From NCBI GenBank assembly GCA_963669155.1, contig OZ022588.1:21212092-21276091 (forward strand): DNA of 64,000 nt. Reading direction: 5' to 3'. Both the position numbers and the translations under genes were made by a program. Within the stretch, counting starts at the first letter, position 1, and every line of letters begins with the position of its first letter. This DNA comes from Arbacia lixula (taxonomy: Eukaryota > Echinodermata > Echinoidea > Arbacioida > Arbaciidae). Below, one piece after another: positions 1,245-44,200 of this stretch. The notes under the pieces are model-generated. The model was not told the DNA's origin. It ran no database searches and saw nothing but the letters and a program-made list of their open reading frames with translations.

Positions 1245-3771
1245 TCATCTTGTATTTGGTACCGCTAAAGCATCAGCTGCCAACTTGATCTTCTTCTCCA
1301 ACTCTGTCTTGTTCTGTATCACATGACTGAGCTGAGCGTCATCCATTTCAAGCAGCATTCCTGGATTTCAAGAAATGATCACAGGTGGGAAACACACATG
1401 CGTTAACAAAATTAATGTCATCTTTGGAAAGTATACCAGGGTACATTATTTTCTCTCCAAAGCAAACAATTGTACAAGTAGCGTGTGATTGCTAAGATTG
1501 AAGGAAGGAATAAGACTGCAGAGGAATGAATTTGTTTATTACTACATTGTATAATACCTGTACTATACATATTTTTAAGTCACATCATTTACATTTTCCT
1601 TAGTTTCCTGTACATTTTAATAACTGATTACGTTAATCTGTGATATTTCAAACGAGTAACTGATAAGGGTTTGTGCCTGGAAACTAGCCATTCCTCTAAT
1701 CACTACCCACCTGTTATCTTTGCCGCGGAGTCAGCGTCATAGCTGCCTGCCACCAGTCCATACAGCCGCTCTCCGAGCTCTTCTCTCCTGCTGCCTTCAG
1801 ACCTTAGGGATGCCAACGACTTGGCGACGGCGTTCCTGAGGTTTGCTGGTGATGACAACAAGCCTCCGATCACTTCAGCATCCAGCTCCAGCAACATCCC
1901 TGGGATTGGGAGATTCAAGGAGATTGGGTTGCTTCTTGTCATTTAAGGCCACCACAGAAACTTAGAAATTTGCCCTAGCTAATTGTTTTTAAATTTTGCG
2001 GCATTATTCTACATGTGATGTCTGTATAAGTAATAATTTGTAAGTAATGATTTACTTCATAGCAAATCTGTAAGAGAAAACCTATCAAAATCTGGCTGTA
2101 CATGTTGCATACAAACAAATACAAAAAACACACCAACATAGACATAGACATAATTGGACATATATCCAGAATACAACATTTTTAGTAGTATTAGGATTAT
2201 TATTGATAATAATTATCATTACTATCATCATCAATAGTGAGATCTTAATCATCATTGTGGCTGATCAACAACATCTTGGGTCAATAACGTAATGGCTGTG
2301 ACTCTGTGACACTTAATCAAGTGATTCAAAGCGCTGTACAGGCATTTACATAATAAGAAATAGGAACAAAAACATAAAAACTAGAAAGCAACATTAATTA
2401 TAAACAAGAAAAAATATTTCGCCTGCATTGAAAATTAGGAATTAAACAGGAATTAAAGGCAGTATAGAGAATTGTTTCCATGGCTACCTGTTGATAGAGA
2501 CTCAAATCTGGCTAACCTGTGATCTTGGCACACTGAAGGGGTTCTATCTTGGCTACTTCAGCATACAGCGCTTCCCCATAACGCTCCTTCTCTTCGCTCC
2601 TCTCATCCTCCCTGCAAAAAAAGGGGAGATGAATACTGTATACACCGATATTTTCACATTTTAAGAGTAAATCTCACGTTTTGTGAATGCCATTTTTCAT
2701 GATTTTAGAGGTGCTTTCATTTGTGTGAATGGACATGAACCAACAGGGAAATGTTTGCAATAATTGACTTGATAATTGAAAATAAAACTACCTCAAAAAT
2801 TAGCACATATTCAGTAATTGAAATTAACTTGATTCTGAATATATTGTGCAAAAAGGAGATAACATTTGATGGATGGTAATAGAACATTCTCTATGAAACT
2901 AGTAGGGAATACTCCGCTGCTCATCCTCTTTGCTCCTTTATTCTCTCTTTTCTCACCTGGTCTCTGAGCAGCTCTTTCTAGAGCTATACTACAGCTCAAA
3001 GGAATTGGCATTAGGGAAAGGGAAAAAGAAGAAAGGGAAGGACCCACAGTTTTAAACCGCGGTATATTTCGTCCAGTTCAGCATGAAACGATGCTTTTTA
3101 GGCTAAAGCATCGTGTTTCATGCTGAACTGGACAAAATATACTGCGGTTTAAAACTGTGGCTCCTTCCCTTTCCCTATGCCAATTCCTTTGAGCTGTTGT
3201 ATATACCAAACAGTCCTTTTATGGATACACATTATGTACCGTGAACACTCGTGGTAATCTTTTCACCATGCCAGAACCTTCCTTGAAAGAACATATCAAT
3301 TATTTTAATTGTTTGTATCCTTCTCTTTTGTTGTTGAAGTATATCATCATAAGAGATGACTTCATTATTCAAATATAATGCATATTTAAGCTTTGATGAA
3401 GCCTTAGTAACTAAAGTTACAATGTGACATGTAGCAATAAACACTGGCCTATTGTGAGCTACAAGCATTTTTGAGAGTGGCCGACACAAATCAGCAAATC
3501 AATGACTGAAGGTAGACGGAGGTGGCCTGATGTTTGCATACCCTTGAATCACCCTGAGGGCCCCCTCTATTCGCTGCCTAAGAAGCGAATCATCTTCCAG
3601 CATTCTCATGATGTCATCATTCTCCGCCTCCAGCAGCATCCCTGTGATGCAGTCAGCTTTCCCACAATGCACCTCAGACACCTTGGCAAACAGGTGCTCC
3701 CCCAGTACTTGCTTGGTGTCAAGAAGGGGTGTTCTAGTGTTAGACTGGTACATGCTTACAATTGGCTGCAT
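1245..3771 (-). CDS. Protein of three tandem MLLE (PABC) domains
   Basis: Four minus-strand exons join in phase: 3771-3542, 2611-2517, 1899-1711 and 1360-1245 (stop TGA at 1247-1245), giving 630 nt or 209 aa. Three MLLE domains follow one another, at about residues 20-76, 85-140 and 148-205. Each contains the ITGMLLE signature of poly(A)-binding-protein C termini (KITGMLLE in copies 2 and 3, CITGMLLE in copy 1), and LGEHLF or LGERLY-type first helices. MLLE domains bind PAM2 peptides. Copies 2 and 3 are each split by a phase-1 intron exactly between ITG and MLLE; copy 1 is not. The ATG at 3771 follows an in-frame TAG; the ATG at 3753 has a better Kozak context (A at -3). I found no RRM-coding exons upstream as far as DSN1, so this looks like a stand-alone MLLE protein, but spliced upstream exons cannot be excluded. 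The alternative is the C-terminal remnant of a duplicated PABPC gene. Confidence 0.75.
2985..3205. repeat. Long foldback (palindromic MITE) in MLLE-gene intron 1
   Basis: Two arms of about 100 bp are inverted around 3095. The left arm runs from TACTACAGCTCAAAGG through CAGTTTTAAACCGCGG to CATGAAACGATGC; the right arm is its complement, ending CCTTTGAGCTGTTGTA. Mismatches are few. It lies between the MLLE exons ending at 3542 and starting at 2611, so the transcript could form a long hairpin. No coding capacity. Confidence 0.75.
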
Positions 3772-19792: not shown

Positions 19793-19844
19793 CAATAAGG
19801 ATATTGCTACTGATAATCGTTTGTCTCGCAATGTAAGGTAACCG

Positions 19845-19904
19845 GTATCGAAAAGATCACGACGTTTCATGTGCCGCGCTGCAACACTTCGTCAGGTGTG
19901 ATAC
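19845..19904 (-). ncRNA. Hammerhead-ribozyme-like motif, minus copy
   Basis: On the minus strand the order is GTATC, CACA, CTGACGA, a stem-II segment, GAAAC, GTC, GTG and GATAC. CTGACGA and GAAAC match the conserved hammerhead cores, ACGT can form a very short stem III, and GTATC/GATAC plus CAC/GTG make a two-part stem I. Compared with the plus copy, stem II has two extra bases and ends ACAT rather than ACAC. One extra nucleotide lies between CTGACGA and stem II, which departs from the standard core. Activity is untested. Confidence 0.45.
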
Positions 19905-19979
19905 AAAATTGTAGTAAGCAGGGGTTTAAATACCCTATGGTCAGTGCAGGGTATTTAAACCCCTGCTTACTACAATTTT

Positions 19980-20037
19980 GTATCACACCTGACGAAGTGT
20001 TGCAGCGGCACACGAAACGTCGTGATCTTTTCGATAC
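19980..20037 (+). ncRNA. Hammerhead-ribozyme-like motif, plus copy
   Basis: The core blocks CTGACGA and GAAACGTC appear in order. Stem II can pair GTGT with ACAC; stem I pairs CAC with GTG and, beyond an internal loop, GTATC with GATAC. The stem III sequence ACGT is self-complementary, as in minimal hammerheads that act as dimers. An extra A lies between the CTGACGA core and stem II. Predicted cleavage would follow GTC at about 20019-20021. Confidence 0.5.
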
Positions 20038-20118
20038 CGTTTACCTTACATTGCGAGACAAACGATTATCAGTAGCTATCTATCCGCACTGAGTAACATA
20101 TTTAGCAATAAGGATATT

Positions 20119-21126
20119 ATAAAGAGAAAATTTGCATATGAAGCAGAAAAGCTAGGAAGTACAGTATCAAAATGGAAAGAGAAGTTTAAGAGAGCAATAC
20201 AGGACAAAAATATCAGCAAAAACTTTGATGGAGGAAAGAACATTTAATCGCAATTTAAGCTAAAGATGTTTGATTTGGATTCTTAGTACATGTAATGACT
20301 GAAACAACGTGTGTCAACTCGGTCAGCCCTCGACTCCTTTTTTTTTTTTTGTCTTTCACCTATACCATATCGTCAGACGTCGGCGTCGCACAAAGGAAAT
20401 TCAACGAAATTTGGCTAAAAAGACGATTCAATTTTGTCCCTTTAAAGATAGAGAAATTGAATTTCAAGTAACTGGTATGTAGCGTAATGTTATTTCAGCA
20501 TGTGTCATTACTAATAACAGTGGGTAAAATTCGCTTAATTTTCTGACATGACGAAAAATGACACGGGTTACACGGCCCGGACTCCTGTTCTTGATTCGGT
20601 CGCACCGGATGGTAATGCCACTCTGCCGGAGTTCCGGGCGCCTGTGTGACGGCGGGTCGCTATACCGTGTCTGCGGCTAGCTTATCTCACTTTAGTGTTA
20701 GTGATTCATCAACACTAACAGTCAAACCAAATGGGTTATTTTGTACTTCATCGTACCGTGATTTTCCTCATTTTTATACAATTTGATCATAATTGATGGT
20801 TTCTTCAGTGAATTAACAGCAGCTGTCCAATCACTGAAGAAACCATCAATTTATGATAAAAACGTATTCTGTATCAATTTTTTTTTGTAAACGGAACACA
20901 CACATTGTTAAATTAACTTACAAACAATGAAATATTCATGACGTTCATGGATCATCTTTCTCACTCAATCCAACTCTTTCTATTCTGACCATTCCCAAAA
21001 TGACATATTTTGAAATCCATTTTTTCCCCATCTACTTTCAAGCTCCAAACTTCACAAGAATTGTATTTCTTGTCCAATTTACAATGTGTTATTTTAAATA
21101 TTTCTATTTTTTTTTTTATTTAGAGC
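20119..21126. other. Intergenic with coding-like remnant and a hairpin
   Basis: 20106-20250 reads as a continuous peptide (KRKFAYEAEKLG, then KWKEKFKRAIQDKN) ending at TAA, with no family recognised; it is the right half of the sequence split by the palindromic element. At 20786-20857 two arms of about 25 bp (ATTGATGGTTTCTTCAGTGA and complement) form a hairpin. 20560-20690 is GC-richer without a clear gene. Confidence 0.35.
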
Positions 21127-21541
21127 AATTCATTTTTTAATTGTTCTTTGAATGTTTCCATGGTGAGAGTGTACTAATAAATACTATTTAGAAAATAGCA
21201 AAACTTTCGGTAACACCATGTGGTTGTATTCTTTCGGATAATTGGCCCACTTATGGGGTGAAGAAAGGAAAGGAAAGTGAAAAGTGAAAAGGAGAGGTGA
21301 ATTTTTATATTTTATAACACTTACACAAGACTATTTTTAGCTTTAGTTTTCGGTGTTTTAAACCGAAAATAAATGGGATGGAATGGAGGTAGAAGAAGAG
21401 GGTGGGTGTTGATGAAAGTTGTGAACTAGTCACAAAGTAGTGATAAAGAGAAAAGAAAAGAAAAGAAAATGAGAAAAGTGTAGAAAAGTTATAGTCAGTT
21501 CTGCAACTAACTATAGATTTCTTTCAAAATCTGAAAGAGGG

Positions 21542-21597
21542 AGTATCAGTCTCGACGTTTCGGGCAGTGTGCTCTGTCCGTCATCCGGAGAATAACT
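21542..21597 (-). ncRNA. Degenerate hammerhead-like motif, left arm
   Basis: Mirror copy of 25714-25769. The blocks CGGATGA, a stem II GGACAG/CTGCCC, GAAAC and GTC occur in order. Position 4 of the core is G instead of the conserved U, which should abolish or weaken cleavage. It lies 3' of the GIY-YIG frame, where Penelope-like elements carry their ribozyme. Confidence 0.35.
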
Positions 21598-21807
21598 TGA
21601 AGAAACCAACGAGCGCGCCGGGTATTTATGTGATCCGAAGGGATCCGAAATAACCCGAGAGTGTCCGAAATCAGCCAATAGGAATAGAGCGTTTCGGCGC
21701 GAATGTGCTGTGTGCACTAGAGCGTGAAACAGCTGAATAGGTGCGAAAGTGCGGCGCGAATGCGCGGTGTGCACTGGAGCGTGAAACGGCGCGAAAGTGT
21801 GGCGTAT

Positions 21808-22378
21808 TCAATTCCCCGAGCTTTCGGGTAGGTCGTCGTCCCGTGTGCGTTGTGCGTGGTGGTGCTGCCGGTGTGCGTGGTGAAGAAGTGGCATCCAGAT
21901 ATCGTTGATCACAAGTCCACTCTCCTGTGGTACCGTGTCGTGTTGAAGAATCTCGATGGCTTCTCTCACGCGCCGGGTGTGCCAGTGCTTAATGGATGTG
22001 ATGAGTTCTGCGTTGGACCAGTCGATGCGATGATTCTGTTGCTGAGCATGTTTGACGATAGCTGATTTCTCCCACTCGTTCCGTCTAAAGCTGGTCTGGT
22101 GTTCCTTGAGTCTGGTCCTAAGGCTTCTTCCGGTTTCTCCAACGTAGAACTGACCGCATTCACACGGTATCTTGTAGACTCCTGGTTGAGTGTCCGGCGG
22201 CTTCCTGTCTTTGTGGGTGAAGAGCTTGGAGTGCAGCTTACCTGAAGATCGGTGCCTGACCTGGATGTTGACGTTCTTGAGAATCCGCTGAATCTTGTGA
22301 GAAGCTTGTCCTATGTAAGGGAGAAAAACTGAAGCTAAATGTGGCGGAGCAGGAGTGCGCGGACGAGGTAGAGATGTC
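21808..22378 (-). pseudogene. Penelope-like RT end + GIY-YIG endonuclease, left copy
   Basis: Inverted twin of 24942-25503 and identical at nearly every base. It is open from the array boundary at 22378 to a TGA at 21810-21808, about 189 codons. It lacks the N-terminal reverse transcriptase and is therefore a fragment. The one difference noticed changes a single residue (Thr here, Ala in the right copy). Confidence 0.75.
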
Positions 22379-22383
22379 TACCT

Positions 22384-24919
22384 CGTTCATTTACAGGATG
22401 GAGCACGCTATCCTTACTACTGGGTGTATGCCTGAAATTTCTTTGTAAATTTCAATTACCCCAGAAAGCCTTTTCAATAAAATCTAGCCAAATTGTCCCT
22501 ACGGCGGACTACTCATGAATATTAATGAGTCAGATGAAATGAGACTCTTTCGGGTATTTGTTTCCATGTTTGTCGTGTCTTGACCCGTGAACTAGAAATA
22601 GCTTGCGTGGTTAAGTCGCTGCCCGGTAAGCAGTAGACTGCAGGTTCGAATCCCGTCTGGTTCCAAGATTTTTGTCTGACTTGTTTTTCGTTCATTTACA
22701 GGATGGAGCACGCTATCCTTACTACTGGGTGTATGCCTGAAATTTCTTTGTAAATTTCAATTACCCCAGAAAGCCTTTTCAATAAAATCTAGCCAAATTG
22801 TCCCTACGGCGGACTACTCATGAATATTAATGAGTCAGATGAAATGAGACTCTTTCGGGTATTTGTTTCCATGTTTGTCGTGTCTTGACCCGTGAACTAG
22901 AAATAGCTTGCGTGGTTAAGTCACTGCCCGGTAAGCAGTAGACTGCAGGTTCGAATCCCGTCTGGTTCCAAGATTTTTGTCTGACTTGTTTTTCGTTCAT
23001 TTACAGGATGGAGCACGCTATCCTTACTACTGGGTGTATGCCTGAAATTTCTTTGTAAATTTCAATTACCCCAGAAAGCCTTTTCAATAAAATCTAGCCA
23101 AATTGTCCCTACGGCGGACTACTCATGAATATTAATGAGTCAGATGAAATGAGACTCTTTCGGGTATTTGTTTCCATGTTTGTCGTGTCTTGACCCGTGA
23201 ACTAGAAATAGCTTGCGTGGTTAAGTCGCTGCCCGGTAAGCAGTAGACTGCAGGTTCGAATCCCGTCTGGTTCCAAGATTTTTGTCTGACTTGTTTTTCG
23301 TTCATTTACAGGATGGAGCACGCTATCCTTACTACTGGGTGTATGCCTGAAATTTCTTTGTAAATTTCAATTACCCCAGAAAGCCTTTTCAATAAAATCT
23401 AGCCAAATTGTCCCTACGGCGGACTACTCATGAATATTAATGAGTCAGATGAAATGAGACTCTTTCGGGTATTTGTTTCCATGTTTGTCGTGTCTTGACC
23501 CGTGAACTAGAAATAGCTTGCGTGGTCAAGTCGCTGCCCGGTAAGCAGTAGACTGCAGGTTCGAATCCCGTCTGGTTCCAAGATTTTTGTCTGACTTGTT
23601 TTTCGTTCATTTACAGGATGGAGCACGCTATCCTTACTACTGGGTGTATGCCTGAAATTTCTTTGTAAATTTCAATTACCCCAGAGAGCCTTTTCAATAA
23701 AATCTAGCCAAAATTGTCCCTACGGCGGACTACTCATGAATATTAATGAGTCAGATGAAATGAGACTCTTTCGGGTATTTGTTTCCATGTTTGTCGTGTC
23801 TTGACCCGTGAACTAGAAATAGCTTGCGTGGTTAAGTCGCTGCCCGGTAAGCAGTAGACTGCAGGTTCGAATCCCGTCTGGTTCCAAGATTTTTGTCTGA
23901 CTTGTTTTTCGTTCATTTACAGGATGGAGCACGCTATCCTTACTACTGGGTGTATGCCTGAAATTTCTTTGTAAATTTCAATTACCCCAGAAAGCCTTTT
24001 CAATAAAATCTAGCCAAATTGTCCCTACGGCGGACTACTCATGAATATTAATGAGTCAGATGAAATGAGACTCTTTCGGGTATTTGTTTCCATGTTGTCG
24101 TGTCTTGACCCGTGAACTAGAAATAGCTTGCGTGGTTAAGTCGCTGCCCGGTAAGCAGTAGACTGCAGGTTCGAATCCCGTCTGGTTCCAAGATTTTTGT
24201 CTGACTTGTTTTTCGTTCATTTACAGGATGGAGCACGCTATCCTTACTACTGGGTGTATGCCTGAAATTTCTTTGTAAATTTCAATTACCCCAGAAAGCC
24301 TTTTCAATAAAATCTAGCCAAATTGTCCCTACGGCGGACTACTCATGAATATTAATGAGTCAGATGAAATGAGACTCTTTCGGGTATTTGTTTCCATGTT
24401 GTCGTGTCTTGACCCGTGAACTAGAAATAGCTTGCGTGGTTAAGTCGCTGCCCGGTAAGCAGTAGACTGCAGGTTCGAATCCCGTCTGGTTCCAAGATTT
24501 TTGTCTGACTTGTTTTTCGTTCATTTACAGGATGGAGCACGCTATCCTTACTACTGGGTGTATGCCTGAAATTTCTTTGTAAATTTCAATTACCCCAGAA
24601 AGCCTTTTCAATAAAATCTAGCCAAATTGTCCCTACGGCGGACTACTCATGAATATTAATGAGTCAGATGAAATGAGACTCTTTCGGGTATTTGTTTCCA
24701 TGTTGTCGTGTCTTGACCCGTGAACTAGAAATAGCTTGCGTGGTTAAGTCGCTGCCCGGTAAGCAGTAGACTGCAGGTTCGAATCCCGTCTGGTTCCAAG
24801 ATTTTTGTCTGACTTGTTTTTCGTTCATTTACAGGATGGAGCACGCTATCCTTACTACTGGGTGTATGCCTGAAATTTCTTTGTAAATTTCAATTACCCC
24901 AGAAAGCCTTTTCAATAAA
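22384..24919 (+). repeat. 305-bp tandem array, 8 full copies plus a partial
   Basis: Units begin at 22384, 22689, 22994, 23299, 23604, 23910, 24214, 24518 and 24822 (partial, about 98 bp). The periods are 304-306 bp and copies are about 99% alike; the last three full units share a one-base deletion (CATGTTGTCG). Each unit starts CGTTCATTTACAGGATGG and contains an AATAAAATCTAG segment, a palindromic CTCATGAATATTAATGAG and a tRNA-like cloverleaf at about +205 to +281. The cloverleaves start at 22589, 22894, 23199, 23504, 23810, 24114, 24418 and 24722. Each is followed by TTTTT, a Pol III stop. Homogeneity suggests recent expansion or gene conversion. Confidence 0.9.
22589..22665 (+). tRNA. tRNA-like cloverleaf (first of eight in the array)
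   Basis: Acceptor arms GAACTAG and CTGGTTC pair over 7 bp (one G-U). The D arm is GCTT/AAGT with a GG-containing loop. The anticodon stem is GCTGC/GCAGT with a 7-nt loop CCGGTAA, which places GGT at the anticodon (threonine if genuine). The T arm is GCAGG/CCCGT with loop TTCGAAT and one A-C mismatch. The B box GGTTCGAATCC is perfect, and TTTTT follows at 22669-22673. Against a functional tRNA: position 33 is C rather than U, and about five nucleotides instead of two separate the acceptor and D stems. It is best seen as a tRNA-derived Pol III unit, SINE-like. Confidence 0.45.
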
Positions 24920-24941
24920 ACTACTACATCTCTACATCTCT

Positions 24942-25503
24942 ACCTCGTCCGCGCACTCCTGCTCCGCCACATTTAGCTTCAGTTTTTCTCCCTTACATAG
25001 GACAAGCTTCTCACAAGATTCAGCGGATTCTCAAGAACGTCAACATCCAGGTCAGGCACCGATCTTCAGGTAAGCTGCACTCCAAGCTCTTCACCCACAA
25101 AGACAGGAAGCCGCCGGACACTCAACCAGGAGTCTACAAGATACCGTGTGAATGCGGTCAGTTCTACGTTGGAGAAACCGGAAGAAGCCTTAGGACCAGA
25201 CTCAAGGAACACCAGACCAGCTTTAGACGGAACGAGTGGGAGAAATCAGCTATCGTCAAACATGCTCAGCAACAGAATCATCGCATCGACTGGTCCAACG
25301 CAGAACTCATCACATCCATTAAGCACTGGCACACCCGGCGCGTGAGAGAAGCCATCGAGATTCTTCAACACGACACGGTACCACAGGAGAGCGGACTTGT
25401 GATCAACGATATCTGGATGCCACTTCTTCACCACGCACACCGGCAGCACCACCACGCACAACGCACACGGGACGACGACCTACCCGAAAGCTCGGGGAAT
25501 TGA
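24942..25503 (+). pseudogene. Penelope-like RT end + GIY-YIG endonuclease, right copy
   Basis: Open for about 186 codons to TGA at 25501-25503. It reads VFLPYIGQASHKIQRIL and KLHSKLFTHKDRKPP (the linker after the Penelope reverse transcriptase), then PGVYKIPC and YVGETGRSLRTRLKEHQ, which is a GIY-YIG nuclease core with GVY, YVG and the conserved Arg/Glu-containing helix. The enzyme nicks target DNA for retrotransposition. The RT domain is missing, so the copy cannot move by itself. Confidence 0.8.
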
Positions 25504-25713
25504 ATACGCCACACTTTCGCGCCGTTTCACGCTCCAGTGCACACCGCGCATTCGCGCCGCACTTTCGCACCTATTCAGCTGTTTCACGCTCTAGTGCACA
25601 CAGCACATTCGCGCCGAAACGCTCTATTCCTATTGGCTGATTTCGGACACTCTCGGGTTATTTCGGATCCCTTCGGATCACATAAATACCCGGCGCGCTC
25701 GTTGGTTTCTTCA

Positions 25714-25769
25714 AGTTATTCTCCGGATGACGGACAGAGCACACTGCCCGAAACGTCGAGACTGATACT
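25714..25769 (+). ncRNA. Degenerate hammerhead-like motif, right arm
   Basis: Order: AGTTAT, TCTC, CGGATGA, stem II GGACAG...CTGCCC, GAAAC, GTC, GAGA, ATACT. Stem I can form as TCTC/GAGA plus AGT(T)AT/ATACT across an internal loop. The core base U4 is G. As in the motif at 19980, one extra nucleotide separates the core from stem II. Confidence 0.35.
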
Positions 25770-26147
25770 CCCTCTTTCAGATTTTGAAAGAAATCTATAG
25801 TTAGTTGCAGAACTGACTATAACTTTTCTACACTTTTCTCATTTTCTTTTCTTTTCTTTTCTCTTTATCACTACTTTGTGACTAGTTCACAACTTTCATC
25901 AACACCCACCCTCTTCTTCTACCTCCATTCCATCCCATTTATTTTCGGTTTAAAACACCGAAAACTAAAGCTAAAAATAGTCTTGTGTAAGTGTTATAAA
26001 ATATAAAAATTCACCTCTCCTTTTCACTTTTCACTTTCCTTTCCTTTCTTCACCCCATAAGTGGGCCAATTATCCGAAAGAATACAACCACATGGTGTTA
26101 CCGAAAGTTTTGCTATTTTCTAAATAGTATTTATTAATTCATTTTTT

Positions 26148-28092
26148 GTCTCGCCCACCGGAGGTGAAGGCGAGACTAAGGGATCCAAATGGCGTCCGTC
26201 CGTCGTCCGTCCGTCGTCCGTCGTCCGTCGTCCGTCACAAAGGTTAAAGTTTACCTGCAAGACTCTCTTATGATCCATAACTTCACATGGGTTGCTTGGA
26301 TTACAACCTAACTTGGGTCATAGATGCACTGGGGGTACCTTCATGTTATGGTGGCATTGGAGGTCACAGGATAAGGTCAAAGGTCATTTGAGGTCATACG
26401 TTAAAGTTTACCTGCAAGACTCTCTTTTGACAAATAACTTCACATAGGTTGCTTGGATTACAACCTAACTTGGGTCATAGATGCACTGGGGGTACCTTCA
26501 TGTTATGGTGCTGTTGGAGGTCACAGGATAAGGTCAAAGATCATTTGAGGTCATACGTTAAAGTTTACCTGCAAGACTCTCTTTTGACATATAACTTCAC
26601 ATGGGTTGCTTGGATTACAACCTAACTTGGGTCATAGATGCACTGGGGGTACCTTCATGTTATGGTACCGTTGGAGGTCACAGGATAAGGTCAAAGGTCA
26701 TTTGAGGTCATATGTTAAAGTTTACCTGCAAGACTCTCTTTTGACAAATAACTTCACATGGGTTGCTTGGATTACAACCTAACTTGGGTCATAGATGCAC
26801 TGGGGGTACCTTCATGTTATGGTGGCGTTGGAGGTCACAGGATAAGGTCAAAGGTCATTTGAGGTTATATGTTAAAGTTTACCTGCAAGACTCTCTTTTG
26901 ACAAATAACTTCACATAGGTTGCTTGGATTACAACCTAACTTGGGTCATAGATGCACTGGGGGTACCTTCATGTTATGGTGCTGTTGGAGGTCACAGGAT
27001 AAGGTCAAAGATCATTTAAGGTCATACGTTAAAGTTTACCTGCAAGACTCTCTTTTGACATATAACTTCACATGGGTTGCTTGGATTACAACCTAACTTG
27101 GGTCATAGATGCACTGGGGGTACCTTCATGTTATGGTACCGTTGGAGGTCACAGGATAAGGTCAAAGGTCATTTGAGGTCATACGTTAAAGTTTACCTGC
27201 AAGACTCTCTTTTGACAAATAACTTCACATGGGTTGCTTGGATTACAACCTAACTTGGGTCATAGATGCACTGGGGGTACCTTCATGTTATGGTGGCATT
27301 GGAGGTCACAGGATAAGGTCAAAGGTCATTTGAGGTTATATGTTAAAGTTTACCTGCAAGACTCTCTTTTGACAAATAACTTCACATGGGTTGCTTGGAT
27401 TACAACCTAACTTGGGTCATAGATGCACTGGGGGTACCTACATGTTATGGTGCTGTTGGAGGTCACAGGATAAGGTCAAAGGTCATTTGAGGTCATACGT
27501 TAAAGTTTACCTGCAAGACTCTCTTTTGACAAATAACTTCACATAGGTTGCTTGGATTACAACCTAACTTGGGTCATAGATGCACTGGGGGTACCTACAT
27601 GTTATGGTACCGTTGGAGGTCACAGGATAAGGTCAAAGGTCATTTGAGGTCATACGTTAAAGTTTACTTGCAAGACTCTCTTATCACACATAACTCATCA
27701 CATGTTGCTACAATGGCAATCAAACTTGGATGATGGATGCACTGGGGGAACCTGCATGTTATTGTGCTGTAAGAGGTCACATGATAAGGTCAAAGGTCAT
27801 TTGAGGTCATACATTAAAGTTTACTTGCAAGACTCTTGGTGAAGGCTTCCTAACTTGTGCACAGAATTGTGTGAGCATGTGTGAGCATTACTGATGTAGA
27901 TTTAGGCAAACATTACTCATGCACATTTATGCAAATATATTCAAAGTCACTATTTTGCACCTGATTTTGATGTAGTCTGTTTAAAGTTGCTTATTTATTT
28001 GTTTCAGTTTTCTTTTGCGTAGCAACGGAGATCGCGATATTTCTGGTTATTTTCGCAAGTGGGCGAGACACAATATTGCTAATGCCTTGTTT
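26148..28092 (+). mobile_element. Satellite-bearing repeat with nuclear-receptor half-site array
   Basis: The element begins GTCTCGCCCACCGGAGG and ends with GTGGGCGAGAC followed by ACAATATTGCTAATGCC; the outer GTCTCGCCCAC and GTGGGCGAGAC are perfect inverted 11-mers. After a GTCC/CCGT-rich stretch come about ten units of 157 bp (26250-27840). A typical unit contains AGGTCA, 7 nt, AGGTCA, 1 nt, AGGTCA, 4 nt, AGGTCA. In the second and fifth units the third half-site is AGATCA. The right end (27840-28092) is non-repetitive. A second, inverted copy with four units is at 42285-43105. The right edge lies 199 bp before the MED22 ATG. No transposase is present; the family is unknown to me. Confidence 0.75.
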
Positions 28093-41200: not shown

Positions 41201-44200
41201 GTCACAACCTCTGATCTTCAATGATTGGCCTAGAAAAAGGAATCACATAATCAAAATCGTCAGTGTGTCTCACCAGCGAGTTCTTTGTCCAGCGTTGCTC
41301 TCCTGCGAGCGTCCTCCTCAGACTGTGCGTTGCCCAGCTTGGTCTGAGAGAGACTCTCCTTGTACTTAACATTGGCCTCGCCCAGGAGTAAGACCTCCTT
41401 GTTCAGTCTGCCGATCTATGGTGGGAGAGAATGAGTGATAACATCCATTGCAAACAGACAAAAACTATGCAGCCACCTCTAGTCTTTAATCTCTAAGTCT
41501 CCCGATCTATGGTGGGAGGGAGTGCTTGATTAAAACGAGAGCAAATCCATTAAACAGAGGCAAAAAACATGCAGCCACCTCTAATCTTTCATTGCTTAGT
41601 CTCCCAATCTATGGTGTGAGGGAGTGATCAATTGAAACTAGAGCAAATCCATTAAACACATGTGAGAAACATGCAGCCACCTCTAGTCTTTAATCGCTTA
41701 ATCTCCTGGGGCCATATTCATGATACCTTACTAGGCCTAGTTAGTTGCCAAAGTGCATTCATCTACATGCATTTTAGTAACCAACTAGGCTAGTAAGGTT
41801 TCATGGATATGGCCCCAGATTTATGGTGGGGAGTGATTGATTGAACTTAAAGAAAATCCATTCCAAACAGACAAAAAATATGCAGCCATATCTAGTCTTT
41901 TATCTTTTAGTCTCCCGATCTATGGTAGGGAGTGATTGATTGAAACTAGAGCAAATCCATTGCACTACAAAGTATGCAGCCTACTAATCTCTTAGTTTCC
42001 CAATCTATGGTGGAAGGAGTGATCAGGAGGGAAAAGAAAAACTAGAGCAATTCAATTGCACAGACGAGGATTCATCTCAGAAAAGCTTCACAGCTTAGGC
42101 TTTCAATTATCGAAATGAGATCTTTGTAATGACTGGAAAGGAGCAAAGAGAGGCTGGCTGACTGACCTCATCCTTGAGATGTCTGTTGGTGGCAATGTCG
42201 GCCTTAGTACTGGTCAGCTCCTGCTCCCGGTCAAACAGCACTGCATGGGTGCTCCGCAGCTCCTGATAATCAATAAAAATAATAACAAGGCATTAGCAAT
42301 ATTGTGTCTCGCCCACTTGCGAAAATAACCAGAAATATCGCGATCTCCGTTGCTACGCTAAAGAATTGTATCCCTGACCTCAAATGACCTTTGACCTTAT
42401 CCTGTGACCTCCAACGGTACCATAACATGAAGGTACCCCCAGTGCATCTATGACCCAAGTTAGGTTGTAATCCAAGCAACCTATGTGAAGTTATTTGTCA
42501 AAAGAGAGTCTTGCAGGTAAACTTTAACATATGACCTCAAATGACCTTTGACCTTATCCTGTGACCTCCAACGGCACCATAACATGAAGGTACCCCCAGT
42601 GCATCTATGACCCAAGTTAGGTTGTAATCCAAGCAACCCATGTGAAGTTATTTGTCAAAAGAGAGTCTTGCAGGTAAACTTTAACGTATGACCTCAAATG
42701 ACCTTTGACCTTATCCTGTGACCTCCAACGGTACCATAACATGAAGGTACCCCCAGTGCATCTATGACCCAAGTTAGGTTGTAATCCAAGCAACCCATGT
42801 GAAGTTATTTGTCAAAAGAGAGTCTTGCAGGTAAACTTTAACGTATGACCTCAAATGACCTTTGACCTTATCCTGTGACCTCCAACGGCACCATAACATG
42901 AAGGTACCCCCAGTGCATCTATGACCCAAGTTAGGTTGTAATCCAAGCAACCCATGTGAAGTTATTTGTCAAAAGAGAGTCTTGCAGGTAAACTTAAACA
43001 TTTGTGACGGACTTCGGACGACGGACGACGGACGGACGACGGACGGACGACGGACGGACGCCATTTGGATCCCTTAGTCTCGCCTTCACCTCCGGTGGGC
43101 GAGACAATAACTTATATGCATTTACCACTTCATAATCTTGATGCAAGTAATGACTGAACAATATATGACAAGAGAACAAAACTGAAAACAAGGTGGTTCA
43201 CGAACCACAAGTCTTGCCTGATTTCATGATCAATAAACATGCAGAAATAAAGAAATGAGAGCAAGTTAAACCAAAACATGAACATTTTGTAACAAACTAA
43301 CAGACCAACAGACTAACAGGAAAAGTGATTACTAGGTCTCGGCTGAACTTTGCTCAGGCGAGACAACAATGTCAACAAGATGTAAACTAGGTTGACTATG
43401 CCTTTTCCATTAGATGGAACACAACAAGAACATATCAAGCAAGATAATATCATAAAGACAATTCCATACAGACAGAACAATATATTCTTAACTTGGATAT
43501 AACCTGTAATCCACAAAACAACACAATCTTCAACTTAAATGTTTAGGTAAGTTTACCCCTTTTCCTAAAAATATAAAGAATGTTATGACACTTGAGTGTC
43601 ATGAACATCATCACTATGGTATATTGCTGCTCCATGCCCAGTTTTTGCAAAACGGACACACCAGTTGACCATTCCTACCTTCTTGACCTTGTCCACCTCC
43701 AGCTTGTGAGTGACCAGCAGTTTGTTGAGCTCCTCGTTGCTCTCCCTCAGCTGGATCTTCTCTGACGCAAGCTTCCTGCAGGCAACAAATCAACAAGAGG
43801 CTCAGCAAATAAGTGTAATTCTCCCTATCGCATATAGCCGATATCACTTCGCGATACCCATATCTGATCGTTTGCTCTTGGGACGTATACTTCCGGTGAG
43901 AGTTTGGTACGTAAATTAGTTCGGCTCAATAACGCACAGAATCTGTAATTTCAACCCTCGTAAACCTCGTAATATTAAAATGGAAGAGTTAATACATGGA
44001 CGAAGGACTTGAAAAAAATATCACCACTCACTCACGGTGATGTTTTTGCCTACCTCAACATTGATTGTGGATGAAAGAATGAAAAGACGCAAGCAAGACG
44101 ATGGCTATAGAATGTTCGTGAACCGGAAGTTCATATCCCAAGAATCAAAGGTAAAAATATTAGAGCACCACACGCATTCATATTCGGAGAGCTATATGTG

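Follow-up and report, generated by a model that had tools for sequence, protein, structure and literature searches.

A Two-Armed Penelope-Like Insertion Joined to a 305-bp Tandem Repeat in the Sea Urchin Arbacia lixula

One stretch of the Arbacia lixula genome (64,000 nt of contig OZ022588.1, positions 21,212,092 to 21,276,091, hereafter the window) contains a 5-kb inverted block that is most probably the product of one recent integration event, in which a Penelope-like element (PLE) was copied into each side of a break by an enzyme that switched to the RNA of a partner element with a 305-bp unit. Two 5′-truncated PLE copies in inverted orientation enclose a tandem array, and all of it lies within one target-site duplication (TSD). 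The same layout, including the TSD, was found in 20 other two-armed insertions of the PLE family to which the arms belong, and this recurrence makes a chance arrangement untenable.

Architecture of the block and identity of its arms

The first-pass annotation had described two nearly identical outward-facing arms of 1.2 kb, a 2.5-kb array between them and a 12-bp repeat bracketing the whole, and all these features were recovered (Table 1). The arms pair in inverted orientation over 1208 nt (21170-22377 with 24934-26141) and leave 2556 nt between them; they are 99.917% identical over 1203 nt, with one mismatch (BLAST). The reading frame runs on the minus strand in the left arm and on the plus strand in the right arm, so that both arms point outward, and the array units match at 99%. 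As the same annotation had noted, unpaired nucleotides occur at one arm only, namely the 37-nt tail on the left, and its view of the block as a single insertion agrees with the one 12-bp TSD around it.

Table 1. Features of the two-armed block and of the small palindrome, in window coordinates.
Feature	Position	Strand	Remarks
TSD, left copy (AATTCATTTTTT)	21127..21138	.	direct repeat, 12 bp
Left arm, 5′-truncated PLE copy, tailed	21139..22379	-	ends at long start site, reads outward
Tail, 37 nt	21139..21175	-	no counterpart in right arm (sequence comparison)
PLE frame, C-terminal part	21808..22377	-	GIY-YIG-type endonuclease region by motif; no Pfam match for GIY-YIG
Left inner junction TCTACCTCGT	22377..22386	+	3 nt of natural PLE and nt mirroring the adjacent arm, then array
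Array of 305-bp partner element	22383..24920	+	8.3 tandem units; right end at unit position 100
tRNA-like module, first 305 unit	22599..22656	+	Rfam tRNA, 20.8 bits, under the 29-bit threshold
Junction filler CTACTACATCTCT	24921..24933	+	13 nt, in part repeating the adjacent arm end
Right arm, 5′-truncated PLE copy, untailed	24934..26135	+	ends at short start site
TSD, right copy (AATTCATTTTTT)	26136..26147	.	direct repeat, 12 bp
Small two-armed insertion, another PLE-like family	19793..20118	.	TSD CAATAAGGATATT at 19793-19805 and 20106-20118; 29-nt tail at 20077-20105

The 10-bp sequence of the left inner junction flanks the array on both sides as a direct repeat, and we infer that the mirrored nucleotides within it are snap-back-like. 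Because the exact 33 nt of the left junction occur only once in the genome, the arm-array-arm block appears not to have copied itself as a unit, and a mobile unit of this composition was ruled out on that ground. An inversion made by the assembly is unlikely because it would yield neither the tail asymmetry nor the TSD. The array was also considered as a plain satellite, which was ruled out by the TSDs that 305 arrays bear in their own right.

Judged by their sequence, the arms are 5′-truncated copies of a PLE, a known element class with a known architecture. A search of the genome (607 Mb, 590 contigs) with the arm family gave at least 46 matches, the best 40 of 2822 candidates being scored. 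A stop-free frame of 813 aa is present in three relatives (L020, L023, and L025), and in L023 it matches RVT_1 (E=2.2e-11, 44.3 bits); the window arms carry only part of the frame downstream of this reverse transcriptase domain. In complete copies, approximately 410 nt of the 3′ region are directly repeated upstream of the ORF (pLTR), and the 37-nt tail stretch corresponds to the ORF start (ATG GAA ACA TTC AAA GAA CAT). Members of the family have the 37-nt tail at one end and TSDs of 9-14 bp, and tandem copies lie 3069 bp apart in L023. The RVT_1 match and this architecture of pLTR, tail, and TSD support the initial annotation of the arms as Penelope-like. The arm stretch CGQFYVGETGRSLRTRLKEH resembles, and may be, a GIY-YIG motif of the PLE type; no Pfam match to a GIY-YIG endonuclease domain was obtained in the arm frame or in the 813-aa frame, and the structure predicted for the endonuclease part of the arm (pLDDT 34.9) was too poor to use.

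A degenerate hammerhead-like core (CGGATGA...CGAAA) occurs in the L023 pLTR at reference position 3048 and in both window arms as a pattern match only, and Rfam gave no hammerhead match in the window block. Elsewhere in the window, a 57-nt fragment at 53725-53781 matches the 3′ end of the arm family with 96% identity.

The small palindrome, for which the same asymmetric plan at a second scale had been claimed, does possess a TSD and a one-ended tail. Its family is abundant (best 40 of 1783 candidates scored), and many matches stop near query position 262 or 293-296. Since the matches end at two places, the tailed/untailed plan seems common to both families, and the tail asymmetry would thus be shared by more than one PLE-like family. 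A motif resembling a hammerhead core was seen in the small palindrome by pattern only, and an Rfam hammerhead was not found there.

Other repeats were noted as well. Two inverted copies of a large repeat occupy 26143-28091 and 42284-43110 of the window, with a GTCTCGCCC... end, a CGTCCGTC tract, 157-bp tandem units, and an 82-bp far end, and the PLE block adjoins the edge of this repeat. An end resembling that of the large repeat (GTCTCGCC) is found beside the PLE of L035 and also in L057. At 20791-20851 lies a small hairpin with arms 90% complementary and 1 nt between them, whose sub-threshold microRNA matches were taken as chance; likewise, sub-threshold Rfam microRNA hits in the palindromes were regarded as hairpin artefacts.

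End rule, target, and truncation in the PLE family

The best 40 of 2822 candidates represent 32 PLE places, of which 30 were read (the window and 29 others); the unread two are on C5 near 1.02-1.03 Mb and on C22 near 10.84 Mb. Nineteen are two-armed insertions with a TSD, four have a single tailed end (L011, L013, L018, and L020; repeats of 9-11 nt), and two have a single untailed end (L034, with a 12-nt repeat, and L032, with a weak repeat of 8 nt only). One is a joint single-ended insertion (L023 on C4), and four are unresolved or exceptional: L025 lies beside N, L031 is cut at the sequence edge, L035 lacks a TSD, and L027 (G000:C13:1710400-1716800) is a two-tailed PLE palindrome that lacks a direct TSD and whose flanks are inverted too. 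L027 may be a fold-back product, a local inverted duplication, or an assembly hairpin. With two insertions added from the 305 search (C542 and C5), the two-armed total is 21, and among the matches listed every one of these 21 has one tailed and one untailed end. An apparent short-plus-short exception at L033 was dropped once the full C22 insertion had been read.

Twenty sites at which the repeat measures precisely 12 bp gave the target motif; 14 are two-armed PLE insertions, two are single-ended PLE insertions, and four belong to 305. C precedes the repeat in 16 of 20 and G follows it in 19; AC precedes it in 15 and GT follows in 17. The shared target, read from these sites as AAC[12]GTT, is a near-palindrome, as expected for a dimeric endonuclease. 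The window site, GAC[12]GCT, matches this motif only in part.

Truncation was analysed at 15 plain two-armed junctions, including L031; these remain from 17 after L033 and L036 were dropped for an extra PLE piece, and the set is without L021 and L024 (rearranged arms), L035, C4, C5, C20, and C542. All 15 junctions join different truncation points, the nearest pair being 16 nt apart (L010), and these unequal points argue against fold-back of a single copy. At least 2 nt are common to both sides at eight of the 15, compared with a chance expectation of 0.156 (p=8e-4).

Arms within a unit are more alike than arms of different units. Across 16 two-armed units, five informative differences were counted within units versus 41.8 expected between units, and none of 20000 resamplings gave so low a value. 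Because the arms of one unit share source variants, they would mostly have a single RNA or a single locus as their common source. Four of the five differences belong to L028, whose arms differ at 4/12 informative sites, which suggests that two different RNAs can be used. Private differences between the arms are also present in two-armed units. The family-wide evidence supports copying from both nicks over fold-back as the probable route.

The 305-bp element and its joint insertions

A genome search with the 305-bp unit gave at least 189 matches (best 40 of 1804 candidates scored), and 11 places were fetched. Eight of these are two-ended tandem arrays with a TSD, and the other three are joined to PLE sequence. 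The eight arrays have direct repeats of 12-15 bp and outer ends at unit position 67-72 on one side and 100-110 on the other; one end is thus approximately 37 nt longer in all eight, the same stagger and tail asymmetry as in the PLE. GT follows the repeat at 8/8 sites, and C precedes it at 3/8 as cut, the longer repeats leaving the register open. Among 55 units from 14 arrays, the mean number of substitutions is 1.46 within an array, 1.46 across opposite sides, and 6.14 between arrays.

The tRNA-like module of the unit scores 20.8-25.6 bits against RF00005 (22.2 in the second unit of the window), below the 29-bit threshold, and ARAGORN found no tRNA. Rfam returned no hammerhead match in 305 sequence at E up to 10 (three units) or up to 1 (seven arrays), and a pattern search for the hammerhead core motif was negative on both strands of the unit. 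BLAST detected no similarity between the unit and the PLE copy used here. Homology between the 305 and PLE start regions was considered and was not significant (81/1000 shuffles as good). Beside one PLE insertion (L009:2281-2467), two inverted 305 fragments of 63 and ~106 nt resemble a miniature two-armed 305 insertion.

PLE and 305 sequences lie together within one TSD at six places: the window, C4, C20, C5, C22, and C542. The first-pass annotation had suggested a search for further arm-X-arm units, and such units were found (e.g., C5, C22, and C542). Its idea that the arms capture unrelated DNA is not supported, since the array represents an element family of its own that shows the PLE insertion signature and is joined to PLE at five other places. 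In the window, the order is PLE arm, 13 nt, and 305 from unit position 100. The C4 case (L023 with L057; G000:C4:20825.6-20837.1 kb) is a single insertion of ~11.4 kb with a 12-bp TSD (ACAGTGGTTATT), in which approximately three tandem PLE copies are followed by 2 nt, 305 from unit 100, and a second switch to unit 98. In C20, PLE runs to reference position 635 and then 305 starts from unit 98 (TSD AAAAAATGGTCTA). C5 comprises an untailed arm to 1638, 305 from unit 100, and a tailed arm from ~3232, and C22 has a tailed arm to 2434, 305 from unit 26, a PLE copy from the untailed start site, and an untailed arm from 2436 (TSD ATATCTACCATT). In C542, a tailed arm to 253 is followed by a reversed 305 piece (unit 110 to 11), 305 from unit 99, and an untailed arm from 251 (TSD AACACCAATATT).

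The seven switches in PLE-to-305 polarity, a count that excludes the opposite-orientation C542 piece, land at unit 100, 100, 98, 100, 98, 99, and 26. Six of them fall at 98-100, within or beside the 100-110 range of the long ends of 305 itself. Under uniform phases, six of seven entries in unit 98-110 would have a probability of 4e-8, with the range chosen after the data had been seen. Half of the six joint places (C542, C20, and C5) were found by searching with 305 and so carry that bias.

The two arms stop within 2 nt of each other in the window (reference 2256/2258), C22, and C542, with C5 as the exception. Near-equal arms thus occur in 3/4 joint versus 0/15 plain insertions (p=0.004), and in 3/4 versus 1/18 (p=0.01) when L021, L024, and L036 are added to the plain set, both tests being post hoc. 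L021 has equal arms around PLE-derived sequence and contains no 305.

Integration model, alternatives, and relation to known elements

The mechanism that we propose is drawn from end products alone. A PLE protein, probably a dimer, would cut both strands with a 12-nt stagger, and each 3′ end would serve as primer for a reverse transcript, both being templated by one PLE RNA or by RNAs of a common source locus; one copy would begin at the long start site and the other at the short one. In the window, the two copies would have ended within 2 nt of each other on the RNA, most simply explained by a broken 5′ end, so that both enzymes might run off one RNA before either jumps. The right-hand enzyme would then jump to the 305 start site on a multimeric or circular 305-nt RNA and copy about eight units, and the free end would be joined to the left copy via a short templated filler. 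As the PLE enzyme would enter the 305 RNA at its start site, the best reading of the 305 element is a non-autonomous partner that uses the protein of the arm PLE.

Several observations count against parts of this scheme. The unequal arms of C5, one of four two-armed joint insertions, indicate that stopping at the same RNA 5′ end is not general. The landing at unit 26 in C22 is away from the start site, and the extra 305 piece in C542 runs in the opposite direction. Also unfavourable are the equal arms of L021 without 305, the differing arms of L028, the lack of significant similarity between the 305 and PLE start regions, the 10-bp repeat around the array, the partial motif match of the window target, and the C before the repeat at only 3/8 305 sites. 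The available portion of a study of PLE integration in vitro (PMC11167929) reports no start-site difference between strands.

Nested insertion, in which a near-equal-armed PLE palindrome formed first and a 305 array later entered its centre, is an unlikely alternative. It would fit the right end of the array, which falls within the range of usual 305 long 3′ ends, the 10-bp repeat on both sides of the array, the fairly close arms of L010, and L048, a 305 array with a TSD of its own that lies nested inside PLE sequence. However, a 12-bp repeat was not found at the array edges, where the longest is 10 bp; 18 non-305 nt separate the 305 end from that repeat, and snap-back of one inverted arm would yield the repeat unaided. 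For C4 and C20, nesting is excluded: PLE sequence adjoins one copy of the outer TSD and the 305 5′ end adjoins the other, an arrangement that nesting cannot produce.

A chance uptake of satellite DNA through end joining, at the time the two cDNAs were connected, seems very improbable. The filler at both junctions does look templated, and host DNA caught between Penelope repeats has been described (PMC3846280, in the part available). Nevertheless, the only non-PLE inserts longer than 13 nt in the 19 listed two-armed insertions with TSDs are 305 arrays (the window and C22), and six of seven entries coincide with the range of 305's own long ends. Least probable of all is fold-back, in which one PLE cDNA or DNA end would have formed the palindrome by copying itself (self-priming is proposed for Penelope in the same portion of PMC3846280): near-identical arms and the tailed palindrome of L027 with its inverted flanks would agree with it, but for this family it is contradicted by the unequal arms at all 15 plain junctions and by direct TSDs, the second end being untailed in 21/21 and abutting a direct rather than an inverted target repeat. 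At the window locus, fold-back should have left two tails and an inverted flank.

Copying from both nicks with a switch to the partner RNA, the reading preferred here, has parallels in known retroelements. tRNA-derived SINEs have a tRNA-like module, are non-coding, and rely on the reverse transcriptase of a partner. The 305 element would resemble them in these respects, its tRNA match being sub-threshold, whereas its tandem two-ended arrays have a PLE-type tail and target. In LINE-1 twin priming, both nicks prime reverse transcription and the inverted junction shows microhomology. In contrast, both outer ends here are element 3′ ends that start at two defined sites.

Penelope/Poseidon-type PLEs are closest to the arms. 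In the portions of the sources available, their plan includes a pLTR copy in inverted orientation, TSDs of 8-10 bp and, optionally, a one-ended tail of ~31 nt (PMC3846280); two adjacent internal sites at which reverse transcription starts on the RNA delimit this tail, and both strands are cut and extended by the protein of an anole PLE (PMC11167929). The A. lixula family shares the single ORF with a reverse transcriptase, the pLTR, tandem copies, an inverted copy with a one-end tail of ~31-40 nt, and short TSDs (9-14 bp here), and it would also share the two adjacent start sites and the cutting and extension of both strands. Since the asymmetric plan of tail and inverted pLTR is thus known for Penelope elements (PMC3846280; PMC11167929), the palindrome-building mechanism suggested in the first-pass annotation is not a new one. 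The family differs in the one-tailed/one-untailed rule, the AAC-N12-GTT target, arms of common source, and apparent switches onto the RNA of a partner, none of which was seen in the available portions of these two papers. Four features seem to be new, namely the counted end rule, a palindromic target, same-source arms, and most notably a tandem partner that is fused to the PLE at the partner's own start site.

Metazoan retrozymes are, like 305, non-coding tandem repeats of ~300 bp dispersed in the genome, and the available part of PMC7229834 proposes PLEs as their likely mobilising element. In contrast to them, the 305 unit has no hammerhead match by Rfam or core motif and has a weak tRNA-like module, and PLE involvement is visible in its joint insertions. 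Short non-autonomous Penelope elements of Heliconius are mentioned, with no structure, in the portion available of PMC6685494; they too are non-autonomous and are filed under Penelope, whereas BLAST finds nothing similar between the 305 unit and the PLE copy analysed here. A limited literature search, mostly without subscription papers and without Repbase, found no description of a partner element of the 305 kind; its novelty is not established, and, having no hammerhead match, the partner may be new. We give roughly even chances to the 305 repeat being a new kind of non-autonomous retroelement, namely a tRNA-like tandem RNA, multimeric or circular and lacking a ribozyme, which a dimeric PLE protein would copy once per target strand, the target being palindromic and each strand using one of the two RNA start sites.

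Later steps of PLE integration are yet to be validated, according to the part of PMC11167929 available. The locus and its relatives offer one consistent reading of PLE integration and of how short tandem retrozyme-like repeats move. Several predictions of two-strand copying with a partner lend themselves to in vitro tests and to counts across genomes that contain such elements. If the 305 repeat is indeed a new non-autonomous retroelement of the kind outlined above, the PLE-305 fusions would be direct genomic evidence of PLEs mobilising retrozyme-like tandem repeats.
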